From: Hyphomicrobiales bacterium
GTDB taxonomy: Bacteria; Pseudomonadota; Alphaproteobacteria; Rhizobiales; JAJFHB01
Length of the DNA stretch: 64,000 bases
Direction: 5' to 3'
Assembly (NCBI GenBank): GCA_021775755.1
Contig: JAJFHE010000038.1
Coordinates: forward strand, 62,001 to 126,000
In this document: positions 26,943 through 30,475 of the stretch, in pieces
Layout: each line of letters starts with the position of its first letter
Numbering within the stretch: position 1 is the stretch's first letter
Notes under the pieces: generated by a model
The model's database searches: none
Seen by the model: only the letters and a program-made list of their open reading frames with translations
Told to the model about the DNA's origin: nothing
Position numbers and translations under genes: made by a program

Positions 26943-27109
26943 TGTGTGCAGGCAGCAGGCTCGATGATCGTGCCTGAGGGTTCTTCACAAGCAAGAGAGC
27001 TTTTTGTCATCTACGTTCAATGGCAATTGTACCAGGGTTGAATTGATCTTACGCCTCGGCATCCGACATACCAATTTCAGTCAACGGAATGTTACGGGAA
27101 ACATCACGA

Positions 27110-27964
27110 ATGAAATTGGGTTTGCTGGGCAGAAGGCCTTTAGTCTTGAGCGGTCTGGGATTTGCAGCTTTGGTCTTAACGGGGTTTGGAAGTGGTGAGA
27201 GGGTGTTCGCGCCAAGTTCGGATCTTTGGCCAAGATGGCTGGCGTATGACCAATTCAGCAGCACCAAAATTAGCCATGCTGCTTGGGATACTGTTCTGAA
27301 GAAATACATTCGCAGCGGTCCCGCCGACGTCAACCTCTTCGATTATCGTGGTGTGACGGTCTCCGACCGACAGGCGTTAACATCATACCTTCAGAAATTA
27401 ACGAACGTGAAGGTCAGCACTCTCAACCGTTCGGAGCAATTGGCGTTTTGGATCAATTTGTACAACGCACTCACAATTGATCTAGTGCTTGAGCACTACC
27501 CCGTAAAGTCGATCCGAGAAATTGACATTTCGCCCGGGCTGTTTTCCGATGGCCCGTGGGGCAAAGCATTGGTGCAGGTTGAAGGCGAAGGGCTCAGTCT
27601 GAATGACATCGAACACCGAATTTTGCGCCCTATCTGGAACGACAATCGAATACACTATGCGGTAAATTGTGCGTCGATCGGCTGCCCGAACCTTCAGCGC
27701 GTTGCTTATACTTCTGAGAACGTTGTCGGGTTGCTTGATCGTGGTGCACGTGACTATGTAAACAGCTCACGCGGTGTGAGCGTCTCAGGCAATAAGATCA
27801 CAGTGTCTAAGATCTATGACTGGTACTACGAGGATTTCGGGAGCTCGGAGAGAACGATTTTGGAACATCTCGGCGTGTACGCAGACGAGCAACTGGGTGT
27901 GGAGTTGGCGCGAATTGGCGATGTGTATTCATCTGCCTATGACTGGACTTTGAACGCCGTTTAG
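27110..27964 (+). CDS. DUF547 domain-containing exported protein
   Basis: This 284-residue protein has a signal peptide with an Arg-Arg pair (GRRPLVLSGLGFAALVL), possibly Tat-type. The DUF547 domain (about residues 55-240) carries FWINLYNALTIDLVLEHYPV, the HYAVNCASIGCPNL block and KIYDWYYEDFG. The paired Cys and surrounding residues resemble a catalytic or metal-binding pocket, but the family function is unknown. An ATG at 27089 is an alternative start. It is convergent with the glycosyltransferase operon, 22 bases apart. DUF547 proteins often occur near the TIGR04283-type glycosyltransferase found here. Confidence 0.85.
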   Translation: MKLGLLGRRPLVLSGLGFAALVLTGFGSGERVFAPSSDLWPRWLAYDQFSSTKISHAAWDTVLKKYIRSGPADVNLFDYRGVTVSDRQALTSYLQKLTNVKVSTLNRSEQLAFWINLYNALTIDLVLEHYPVKSIREIDISPGLFSDGPWGKALVQVEGEGLSLNDIEHRILRPIWNDNRIHYAVNCASIGCPNLQRVAYTSENVVGLLDRGARDYVNSSRGVSVSGNKITVSKIYDWYYEDFGSSERTILEHLGVYADEQLGVELARIGDVYSSAYDWTLNAV

Positions 27965-27986
27965 ACGGTGTCACCCTGTCCAAGGC

Positions 27987-28688
27987 TTAGTCGTTGATAG
28001 CTGGCGAATGTGAGGCTGATCGGTAGTGACGCGCCAGAAGTGCGGACGGCATTCGCAGGTAAAACATCGAGTGAATGAAAATCCATTGTGTGATGATGCG
28101 CCAGCGCTTTCGCGACGTGAAGCGGCGCGATGACGTCACGACCGGCGGGGCATCGATACAAACAGTTCCTCCGTGCCGTTCCAAGCGCTTCACAAACTCA
28201 AAGTCTTCCATGAGCGCAAGCGGCTTCATTCCACCGATTTTCTCGTATACGGACCGGCGTACAAACATCGCGGAGTCTCCATAGTAGATACCCCTGGAAC
28301 GCAAGCTTTCATAAAAACGGGTGAGCCAGATTGCGAAATCTGTGTCACCATCGAAGATCACTCGAAAATTGCCACCACTTACCGAACGGTCGCAAAGCGC
28401 GGCTCGAATGCTCTCAAACGCCAAGGGCCCTAAAATCGTATCGGCATGCAAGATCAGAATGATCTCCCCCGAACAATGTCGAATACCTTCACAGATCTGC
28501 GGTCCTCTTCCACCGCCAGCCACGACCAAACGATCGCTCATTTCGCGGGCGACTTTCACACTGTCATCGTAACTACCGCCATCGCACACTACTATTTCGT
28601 ATGGTCCAGCTTGGTCGATGACGGAAGTGAGGGCTCGGCGGAGACATGCTTCTTCGTTCAAAACCGGAATTACCGCGCTAATCATCAT
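27987..28688 (-). CDS. family 2 glycosyltransferase (TIGR04283-like)
   Basis: This 233-residue GT-A enzyme has SAVIPVLNEE at the start, CDGGSYDDS (Asp36) for nucleotide binding, the metal motif HADT (Asp83) and GGNFRVIFDG. These match the TIGR04283 group, labelled arsenosugar biosynthesis glycosyltransferase in databases, though many members occur without arsenic genes. No ArsM or ArsS lies in the window. A basic, aromatic C-terminal helix (RWRIITQWIFIHSMFYL) may touch the membrane. Its ATG overlaps the preceding stop as ATGA. Confidence 0.88.
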   Translation of the reverse strand: MMISAVIPVLNEEACLRRALTSVIDQAGPYEIVVCDGGSYDDSVKVAREMSDRLVVAGGGRGPQICEGIRHCSGEIILILHADTILGPLAFESIRAALCDRSVSGGNFRVIFDGDTDFAIWLTRFYESLRSRGIYYGDSAMFVRRSVYEKIGGMKPLALMEDFEFVKRLERHGGTVCIDAPPVVTSSRRFTSRKRWRIITQWIFIHSMFYLRMPSALLARHYRSASHSPAIND

Positions 28689-29479
28689 ATCGTTTCAAAC
28701 CGGTGCAGTTCCTCGTCGCCAATCAATCCAGCTGAAGTCAGATCTCCAAGTCGTTCCCTCCATTTTCGCGCAAGCCACACGCTAAGGCGCCGGCGCCCGA
28801 TGAACATGCCCGGCGGAGCCATTCGAGATGCGACCGAGAGGGCACTTTCGTACCAAAGGTGTTTCAGCCAGACATAGATATCGAGCCGCTCGCGAAGCGG
28901 CAGCGTTGGCAGTATCTCTCGCAGGTATATTTTTCCAAATGCTATGTGGCGCGCTTCGTCGCGAGCAATGACGGTGCTAACTTCCCGGAAAAGCGGACAT
29001 GGCAACCACATATCGACGTCTTGCTGTAATCTGAGCGCTTCACCTTCCAGGATGACGTGGAATGCTAGTATTATAGCCTCCGGCGCCCCCTTCCATGAAA
29101 GTGCAGTGGCATAGGAATGCTCAACTGCCGACGACAGCGGACCTAAGCCGCCGAGTTTTCGTAGATATCGCAAGTATATTTTGGCATGCCGCTCCTCGTC
29201 GAGGGATTGCGTTTCCAGAAAGTCGCGCGCTGATCCGACGGAAACATGTGCTCCAATCCGTTTGCACATGTCTGCCGTCGCGACTTCGCCAAAGTAAAAC
29301 TGGCTTATCGCTGTCGCCGCACGCTTTCGTGGCATCCAGATAGGAATCCTGACTGGTCGAGCCCAGTCAAATTCCAGTTCACTTTGATTTTGAGCATGCA
29401 TTCCTTTTAGCTGGAGGTTGCGCAGAATCTGGTCACGCGACAATGGAGGCGCGCTTACATCTGACAATGACGTGGTCAT
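28685..29479 (-). CDS. ferritin-like di-iron protein
   Basis: This 264-residue helical protein carries a complete set of carboxylate and histidine ligands: Glu65 (FGEVATAD), Glu95-x2-His98 (DEERHAKIY), Glu145 or Glu147 (ILEGEALRL) and Glu175-x2-His178 (RDEARHIAFG). Two E-x-x-H motifs in a four-helix bundle indicate a di-iron oxygenase or oxidase of the ferritin-like superfamily. The C-terminal 60 residues are basic and aromatic and may associate with the membrane. I cannot assign the exact family. It is coupled to both neighbours by ATGA overlaps, so it very likely acts in the same pathway as the glycosyltransferase and DUF3047 protein. Confidence 0.8.
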   Translation of the reverse strand: MTTSLSDVSAPPLSRDQILRNLQLKGMHAQNQSELEFDWARPVRIPIWMPRKRAATAISQFYFGEVATADMCKRIGAHVSVGSARDFLETQSLDEERHAKIYLRYLRKLGGLGPLSSAVEHSYATALSWKGAPEAIILAFHVILEGEALRLQQDVDMWLPCPLFREVSTVIARDEARHIAFGKIYLREILPTLPLRERLDIYVWLKHLWYESALSVASRMAPPGMFIGRRRLSVWLARKWRERLGDLTSAGLIGDEELHRFETI

Positions 29480-30159
29480 TCCGGACGGCCGGAGAACAGA
29501 ATCGTCAGACCGGAAATTAACGCTGTGCTTGTCGAACGGGTGTCGTCCGTGTCCGCGGAGATGGCCATGTAGCGTAATGCTGTAAGGTTGGGGAGTTCAC
29601 CGAACGCTGCAGAATAGTCGGAAGAAATATCACGAGCCTCATCGTACCAGCGGCCGATTTCAGAATCGGCGTTTTGTAGGATTATGATTGCGCCTTTCTC
29701 GTAGTGCGGATTTGGCACAATCGTGTTTTGGCCGCGTGTTCCTCCCCAGACATATGTAATGAGATGTCCAACTTTCGGATATCCCAACATTCGCCCCAGA
29801 AATCCAAAGAGAGAGCCGCTTTCGTCATCGTCGAACCAAAGGTGTACGGCGAGCGGGCGGTCGTCGCCACCGTTTGCGGCCTGATCGGTCGCTGCAATCG
29901 TTCGCTGAACGGTCCATCGCCATCTGAGTACTGCATCCTTATCCGGGCTCGAATCGATTTCGCGGTATAGGAAACCAACCGCACTATCGGAGGAAACCTC
30001 AAGCACCTCGTCGGGTTTTGCGAAAAAATGCGGGGCCGATTTTCCCGGCAATTCAAGTAGCTTCCAGTCGGCGCTGTTGAACCACGAGGCGCCTGCAGCC
30101 GAGCTGAACACTGTAGCCGTCAGGGCAAATGCGCCCATCGCATAGTTACGAATTAGCAT
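29476..30159 (-). CDS. DUF3047 domain-containing exported protein
   Basis: This 227-residue protein has a signal peptide (hydrophobic core about residues 6-24, Ala-rich end) and the DUF3047 pattern: VLRWRWTVQRTI, LAVHLWFDDDES, LITYVWGG, GAIIILQNADS and DDTRSTSTALISGLTILF. The family is secreted and has no known function. Its stop overlaps the start of the di-iron gene as ATGA. The ATG at 30159 is preferred over a TTG at 30168. It is the first gene of the operon, so the promoter must lie in the 316-base gap upstream. Confidence 0.82.
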   Translation of the reverse strand: MLIRNYAMGAFALTATVFSSAAGASWFNSADWKLLELPGKSAPHFFAKPDEVLEVSSDSAVGFLYREIDSSPDKDAVLRWRWTVQRTIAATDQAANGGDDRPLAVHLWFDDDESGSLFGFLGRMLGYPKVGHLITYVWGGTRGQNTIVPNPHYEKGAIIILQNADSEIGRWYDEARDISSDYSAAFGELPNLTALRYMAISADTDDTRSTSTALISGLTILFSGRPE

Positions 30160-30475
30160 GATCCCCAAGACTCCCGTTAGCCGCTCACGACGGACTTGTT
30201 TTCCAGAAGTACTGAATTGGGTGTGAACCTGTTTGCGGACAATTCAAGCATCGTCACGATTGAGTGAGAATTGTCAGCACACGTTAAGAGTTACGTTCGA
30301 GGACGTGCATCGCACACCTTCCACGTATCCTGAACATGGTTGCGCGAGTTGACTTTGCCGGATGCTGAGCGCTGTTCGGCATTCACTGGCGTCTCTGACG
30401 GAAGCGGTTTTGCGTCAGGTCAACGCGCTTTTACAGCGCAAACACCACTCTGATTCTATCTTAAGTGATCTCGCT
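30160..30475 (-). other. intergenic region upstream of the DUF3047 operon
   Basis: This 316-base gap has no convincing open frame. It separates the end of the RND gene from the DUF3047 operon on the same strand. It holds two short hairpin-forming repeats: GCGCT/AGCGC near 30425-30440 and CTGACG/CGTCAG near 30397-30420. Neither has a T-run. I could not identify a convincing sigma-70 promoter by eye. Confidence 0.5.

Follow-up and report, generated by a model that had tools for sequence, protein, structure and literature searches.

Among described systems, the one closest to the locus reported here is the ArsS-type cluster, which on the Acinetobacter portensis plasmid pJNE5-X3 comprises arsS, TVP38/FAD, DUF547, TIGR04283 and TIGR04282 genes, with DUF547-TIGR04283-TIGR04282 lying downstream of arsS. 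DUF547 and TIGR04283 genes also occur together with arsS on a Burkholderia glumae plasmid. At the level of single proteins, the closest comparisons are R2lox and ribonucleotide reductase R2, the AurF/VlmB N-oxygenase family and ferritin-like proteins of about 365 amino acids encoded on viral contigs. R2lox carries Val-Tyr cross-link residues, and AurF has an extra (seventh-ligand) His on its last helix, four residues before the Glu of the last ExxH motif. A description of the cassette analyzed below was not found in the open-access papers searched.

Gene layout and accessory proteins

The window, a stretch of 64,000 nucleotides of alphaproteobacterial DNA, contains a DUF547 gene on the plus strand (27089..27964; PF04784, 95.9 bits), for which position 27110 is an equally good start. 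It converges on three minus-strand genes encoding a DUF3047 protein (29476..30159; PF11249, 118.4 bits; alternative TTG start at 30168), a ferritin-like R2/R2lox-fold protein (FLP; 28685..29479) and a TIGR04283-like GT2 glycosyltransferase (GT) of the cassette-type group (27987..28688; Glycos_transf_2, 68.6 bits; TIGR04283, 172.3 bits). Inspection of the open reading frames verified the ATGA overlaps, announced in the preliminary description together with the opposing DUF547 gene, between the DUF3047 stop and the FLP start (29476..29479, minus strand) and between the FLP stop and the GT start (28685..28688, minus strand). The FLP/GT junction is kept in 6/8 loci, the DUF3047/FLP junction in 3/6, and an ATGA junction also joins FLP to DUF3047 at all three loci where this gene order is reversed. 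Counts of promoter-like sites (4, against a shuffle mean of 2.5, sd 1.7) and of terminator-like sites (2, against a mean of 4.1) were uninformative.

DUF3047 and DUF547 are apparently exported, as their N-termini look signal-like by eye; their hydropathy peaks (1.24 and 1.70, respectively) are not clearly above the internal peaks of FLP (1.31) and GT (1.60). Residues H176, H189, C194 and C199 of DUF547 are invariant in 10 homologues. Profiles of both families retrieved nothing meaningful among solved structures and no viral relatives. As no solved-structure relative is available and export was judged by eye, the roles given to the two proteins below are guesses. Trees of DUF547 (19/20 context loci, leaving out L213 with its double-length frame) and of DUF3047 (12/20, the others having no clean query match or an over-long frame) resolved no cassette group.

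Fold and putative metal site of the ferritin-like protein

The two E-x-x-H motifs of FLP were found at residues 95-98 and 175-178, as described before. A single-sequence AlphaFold model was discarded (pLDDT 36.9), and the model built from a 29-row alignment reached a pLDDT of 88.2. R2 and R2lox were the best matches of this model among the 50 best listed, with Z scores of 20.6-22.0 at 10-17% identity. The candidate ligands E65, E95, H98, E145, E175 and H178 are invariant in 29/29 aligned sequences, distant viral relatives included. E145 is present in 10 of the 11 cassette FLP rows, the protein of locus L049 having Q at position 145; the FLP of L052 is truncated. The expectation that these six residues surround two metals thus stands as regards their invariance and a confident R2/R2lox-fold model, and their convergence around the metals remains putative. 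By its modelled fold and the six ligand residues, FLP is assigned to the R2/R2lox ferritin-like di-metal fold.

Two residues beside E145, H141 and E147, are kept in 11/11 aligned cassette FLPs. The viral relatives are longer than FLP and share its six ligands at 26-29% identity over the matched part; of the 27 viral sequences aligned, two carry H141 and E147 occurs in none. Invariance in all 11 cassette rows made E147 a candidate to replace E145 as ligand, which was rejected because the viral proteins retain E145 and do not carry E147. FLP was also rejected as an R2lox proper, since both cross-link residues are missing from the 11 FLPs: the position E65+3 is T in 10/11 and A in 1/11, and Tyr is found at E145-5 in 0/11. 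What FLP has in common with R2lox and R2 is the whole-protein fold and the ligand residues.

A relationship to AurF and VlmB would make FLP an N-oxygenase or oxidase of the natural-product kind, and the cassette would then yield a small, freely diffusing glycoside and not a part of the envelope. Among Pfam families, AurF is the one matched most often by the FLPs (11/11 with E-values of 0.1 or lower, down to 6.5e-14), and a VlmB homologue is the best natural match in a PDB profile search (2.5e-7; a designed helix bundle ranks higher). However, the window protein scores only 23.7 bits against a cut-off of 29.6 for PF11583, the position of the extra AurF His is I, V or A in 11/11 FLPs, and neither an export pump nor a further biosynthetic enzyme is common to most FLP loci, so that this reading is considered unlikely. 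Membership of the ferritin-like superfamily could also point to a ferroxidase or peroxidase protecting from oxidative or metal stress, with the other proteins forming an envelope stress response and GT modifying the surface; DUF547 does adjoin TVP38/FAD-oxidoreductase genes at 8/20 other alphaproteobacterial loci. Such a role is quite improbable, given that the best fold matches (Z about 22; 50 best listed) are oxidases or radical enzymes and that no regulator or metal-handling gene is common to most FLP loci. None of the four proteins had a PADLOC match when anti-phage defence was considered.

Recurrence of the cassette in alphaproteobacteria

FLP was surveyed in 385 genomes drawn from the class and in one additional genome (G040); G282 and G225 were excluded before counting. 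From the profile search, 55/66 matching genomes were excluded, as their best E-values were 2e-18 or weaker and the matches were partial and in mostly longer frames, and 10/11 genomes of another search were excluded likewise for partial profile matches in mostly longer frames. This left 12 genomes with FLP (11/385 of the class draw and G040), represented by the window and loci L039 and L043-L052. The whole four-gene set lies in one stretch in 5/12 of them. DUF547 belongs to the same cluster as FLP in 10 genomes, DUF3047 in 11 (the L052 copy being a fragment) and GT in 8, and three further FLP genomes encode a cassette-type GT elsewhere. That the families co-occur, as had been proposed, was borne out by Fisher tests for DUF3047 (10/11 FLP genomes vs 40/374 others) and DUF547 (10/11 vs 92/374), the values of which exaggerate independence because 3/12 FLP genomes share one family. 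A cassette-type GT is present in 11/12 FLP genomes versus 4/40 genomes positive for DUF3047 and negative for FLP. A pattern scan of 90 stretches with poorly chosen patterns returned one locus, and plasmids yielded nothing for FLP beyond two weak partial matches. In the fetched stretches, no further gene family is common to most FLP loci; a dehydrogenase-like family is present at five of them. The cassette itself contains no transporter or lipid enzyme.

The arrangement is found again in other genomes and is thus more than chance. Mere neighbourhood of four genes with no common task is hardly credible, as linkage is maintained in ten families whose FLPs share 28-53% identity and ATGA junctions occur even in reordered loci; the genome survey had already disfavoured it. 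The observations that would fit it are an FLP-free DUF547-GT-DUF3047 arrangement in G438, a DUF547-GT pair lacking FLP on the short contigs of G599, the separation of GT from the rest of the cassette in genomes of family f155, and uncorrelated FLP and GT distances (mirror-tree r 0.02, 28 pairs). Correlations of GT with DUF547 and DUF3047 were 0.37 and 0.43 in a GT set without three close f155 loci; those among FLP, DUF547 and DUF3047 (0.88-0.96) include these loci and were not relied on. The FLP-free copies, together with orphan cassette-type GTs in G418 and G521, indicate that FLP is not obligatory.

Comparison with ArsS clusters and proposed function

On its sequence the cassette GT is assigned to the GT-A family 2 glycosyltransferases with intact motifs: D36, HAD 81-83 and ED 161-162, which we take to be the DXD-type and catalytic acid motifs, are invariant in 8 sequences, and the Glycos_transf_2 score of the window GT exceeds the Pfam cut-off. 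The name of TIGR04283 would imply that the cassette serves an arsenosugar or other organoarsenic pathway. The pairing of DUF547 with TIGR04283 in annotated ArsS clusters, among them the two plasmids, makes part of the cassette a known neighbourhood; the overlapping genes are a further likeness, DUF3047 adjoins an ArsS-type cluster in G442, and 9/11 cassette-type GTs pass the TIGR04283 cut-off of 182 bits. The window GT nevertheless falls below this value, as does that of G040 (176 bits). Cassette GTs separate with 100/100 support from the TIGR04282-paired GTs of the same genomes, and the window genome has such a paired copy in the other GT group on another contig (C17). TIGR04167, presumably ArsS, exceeds its 300-bit cut-off in 0/12 FLP genomes (best 70 bits) and in 1/14 control genomes, in line with the reported lack of arsS despite the arsenosugar label. 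NF008823, taken to be arsenite methyltransferase, exceeds its cut-off in one FLP genome (G374), which is not the window genome; weaker, sub-cut-off methyltransferase matches occur in all 12. The cassette was accordingly rejected as an ArsS arsenosugar cluster on ArsS, arsenite methyltransferase and TIGR04282 pairing alike, and with the GT split and no passing ArsS in 12 genomes an arsenic pathway is very unlikely.

Unlike the ArsS cluster, the cassette has no adjacent TIGR04282 and instead includes FLP and DUF3047. The idea of a distinct system is upheld in that the families co-occur where ArsS does not pass, and weakened in that the DUF547/TIGR04283 pair is common to ArsS clusters and FLP is missing from related copies. 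Apparently, the cassette is a version of the ArsS-cluster glyco-module in which a di-metal enzyme replaces the radical SAM enzyme.

Finding the four genes together in scattered alphaproteobacteria suggests that they probably act jointly in making a sugar-modified molecule. Our preferred reading, advanced tentatively, is that the four genes work as one unit in the synthesis and placement of an oxidized, glycosylated envelope molecule. In the cytosol, FLP would use O2 to hydroxylate, desaturate or N-oxidize a lipid or some other acceptor in a two-electron oxidation, and GT would transfer a sugar to this acceptor from a nucleotide-sugar donor. Provided that they are exported, DUF3047 and DUF547 may act at the periplasmic face by binding the product, transferring it or trimming it. 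ArsS clusters would share the GT-DUF547 module and have the radical SAM enzyme where the cassette has FLP. The modification of a glycan or lipid, with an oxygenation among its steps, that was suggested at the outset would agree with this scheme. It is possible, if doubtful, that the cassette is an undescribed equivalent of the radical SAM arsenosugar pathway that works with O2. An R2lox-type di-metal oxygenase and DUF3047 would then replace ArsS and TIGR04282 beside the GT-DUF547 module, the product would be an alphaproteobacterial envelope glycoconjugate of a new class, and H141/E147 would mark a new metal-site variant.

TIGR04283 is probably mislabelled as 'arsenosugar' for one well-supported GT group in genomes with no passing ArsS. 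DUF547 is tied to the TIGR04283 GT family in two different settings. The widespread, uncharacterized families DUF547 and DUF3047 and a doubtfully named GT family gain a compact, testable genetic unit, which includes a di-metal oxidase fold with nameable likely ligands.

Cassette layout, distribution and gene coupling

Within the window, positions 27089-30168 hold, by ORF and family matches, genes for a DUF3047 protein, a ferritin-like protein (FLP) and a TIGR04283-like GT2 glycosyltransferase (GT) on the minus strand and for a DUF547 protein on the plus strand. As the preliminary description had stated, each minus-strand start overlaps the preceding stop by ATGA, in the order DUF3047, FLP, GT, and the DUF547 gene converges on them. 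The DUF547 gene and the GT stop are 22 bases apart. On one side the cassette borders an OsmC/hydrolase fusion; on the other come an RND pump and a DegP-type protease. Genes that resemble those for cytochrome c maturation (judged by eye) lie farther out.

Overlapping draws of genomes were searched for the FLP. Matches numbered two among 61 relatives, four among 297 genomes of the order (two of the cassette subfamily), 66 at E 0.001 among 385 of the class and 11 at E 1e-15 among 398 of the phylum, where only the window genome gave a full-length match. In the class draw 11 matches, window genome included, belonged to the subfamily, with E values no weaker than 4e-26; the following match lay at 2e-18. 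In total, 12 genomes from ten families (the search tool's numbering) contained the subfamily, none outside the window's class, taken as Alphaproteobacteria, among the genomes searched. One of the 12 is G040, a genome of the window's order with the same cassette.

All four genes stand together in the window and at loci L039, L044, L045 and L046. L043 carries DUF547-GT-FLP, and a profile search of its genome found no DUF3047. The arrangement GT-FLP-DUF3047 occurs at L047, whose contig stops approximately 100 bases past the GT and whose genome yielded no DUF547 when searched, and at L048, whose genome has DUF547 elsewhere. L049-L051, all from a single family, read FLP-DUF3047-DUF547; their genomes encode a second TIGR04283 GT elsewhere that reaches 325-345 bits against the cassette GT profile, and two examined copies paired with TIGR04282 score 129 and 140 bits. 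These displaced GT genes (L093-L095) adjoin a TerB-like gene, with GMC oxidoreductase-like and UbiD-like genes in the vicinity (by eye); at L093 the GT gene is bordered on its other side by an ORF of 1256 aa that carries 4Fe-4S and AMP-binding domains. The cassette at L052 (9049-9683, G511:C32) looks decayed: the FLP is cut off ahead of its second ExxH motif, no GT lies between it and DUF547, and a DUF3047 fragment lies close to the contig end. Apart from DUF547 antisense ORFs, an all-against-all comparison of the fetched stretches revealed no fifth family common to most FLP loci; five loci share a family that looks dehydrogenase-like by eye.

The junction of FLP stop and GT start is ATGA at six of eight loci and that of DUF3047 stop and FLP start at three of six; where FLP precedes DUF3047, the reversed junction is ATGA in 3/3. 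That the overlaps survive a change in gene order speaks for a common task. The proposed co-occurrence of the families was borne out in the class draw, DUF3047 being present in 10/11 FLP genomes versus 40/374 others (Fisher 6e-9) and DUF547 in 10/11 versus 92/374 (Fisher 1e-5), p-values that overstate the evidence because the genomes are kin. DUF547 lies within 6 kb at ten of 56 DUF3047 places, eight of them FLP loci and the remaining two in G479:C94 and G438, the latter ordered DUF547-GT-DUF3047 and devoid of FLP. Cassette-type GTs (over 200 bits) were found in 11/12 FLP genomes versus 4/40 FLP-negative, DUF3047-positive genomes, namely G438, G418, G521 and G599 (split in G599 into two pieces, each at a contig end), and no FLP was seen in the stretches around the GTs of the last three. 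The FLP is therefore closely tied to the module without being an obligatory part of it.

Fold and putative metal ligands of the FLP

Searched against the PDB, a profile built from 11 cassette FLPs matched a designed helix bundle, a VlmB homologue and R2lox enzymes. An AlphaFold model (pLDDT 88.2, pTM 0.86) was built from an alignment of the window and G040 FLPs with 27 distant viral relatives. Foldseek with this model gave no match at E 0.001 or better; its lowest E value was 1.7e-3, and the hits were R2lox, R2, VlmB and bacterial multicomponent monooxygenases. VIA-align returned R2 and R2lox structures in its best 50 rows, aligned over 232-251 residues at Z 20.6-22.0 and rmsd 2.9-8.4; mostly helical models typically reach a Z of 14 at best.

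The putative metal ligands E65, E95, H98, E145, E175 and H178, the very six residues predicted earlier, do not vary in 29/29 rows of the model alignment. In the 11-row cassette alignment, L049 alone has Q in place of E145, and every row keeps H141 and E147; among the 27 viral relatives H141 occurs in two and E147 in none. IMG/VR contigs (L101-L195) often encode a ferritin-like di-metal protein of approximately 365 aa (155 confirmed stretches, 80 kept), and the 27 aligned proteins all keep the six ligand residues.

The glycosyltransferase group and the arsenosugar label

In a tree of 23 TIGR04283-type GTs, 12 cassette-type sequences, which include three displaced copies and G438 as the only one of the four FLP-negative carriers, are split from 11 TIGR04282-paired ones at 100/100. 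TIGR04167, which we take to be the ArsS model, passed its cut-off in 0/12 FLP genomes, in line with the earlier remark that arsS is missing, and NF008823, presumably the arsenite methyltransferase model, in 1/12; the arsenosugar label is thus not supported for the cassette-type group, even though 9/11 of its members tested pass the TIGR04283 cut-off. ArsS itself is described as a radical SAM enzyme that adenosylates arsenic in oxo-arsenosugar biosynthesis (PMC12159101).

Related neighbourhoods and a proposed role

On an Acinetobacter portensis plasmid, DUF547 follows arsS, between TVP38/FAD and TIGR04283-TIGR04282. On a B. glumae plasmid, DUF547 adjoins a radical SAM gene in the vicinity of arsS, and TIGR04282-TIGR04283 lie approximately 11 kb off. 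On a Roseomonas plasmid, DUF547 (51% identical to that of the window) is flanked by TIGR04282 and two radical SAM genes. Given these annotated plasmid neighbourhoods, GT-DUF547 looks like a reused module; the DUF547 and DUF3047 trees resolve too poorly to trace its spread. The Roseomonas haemaphysalidis stretch (L196, 5241-12201) continues with genes for a phosphonate-type ABC transporter and a metallophosphoesterase and may be a further cluster for a radical SAM product.

TVP38/FAD-type neighbours occur at 8/20 further DUF547 loci, of which 18 come from FLP-negative genomes and two are the second copies in the window genome and in G297. Among 20 DUF3047 loci of FLP-negative genomes, one has an ArsS-type cluster beside it (G442:C207; L240, 5440-11998), where DUF3047 adjoins matches to TIGR04282, TVP38/FAD, ArsS, MTA phosphorylase and TIGR04283; no such link was found in the Legionella and Sulfitobacter stretches. 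The window genome's second DUF547 gene (L201, 6775-9010, G000:C65) comes after cobalamin-synthesis methylases and before a GT87-type gene, and its second DUF3047 gene (L042, 8416-10677, G000:C16) lies near a gene for a VTT-domain membrane protein.

Open-access PubMed Central literature on DUF3047, DUF547, TIGR04283, arsenosugar or di-iron/glycosyltransferase pairs contained no account of the cassette, no joint treatment of DUF547 and DUF3047 and no mention of TIGR04283. DUF547 appears mostly in plant studies among the open-access papers matched, and DUF3047 clusters with DUF2155 in marine metagenomes, with no function given in the passages concerned. The analysis shows only linkage, overlapping starts, fold and motifs; the substrate, the sequence of reactions, export and any role in the periplasm are inferred. 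The best-supported reading is that the FLP would carry out an oxidation and the GT a glycosylation, and that the DUF547/DUF3047 pair would deal with the product in the envelope.
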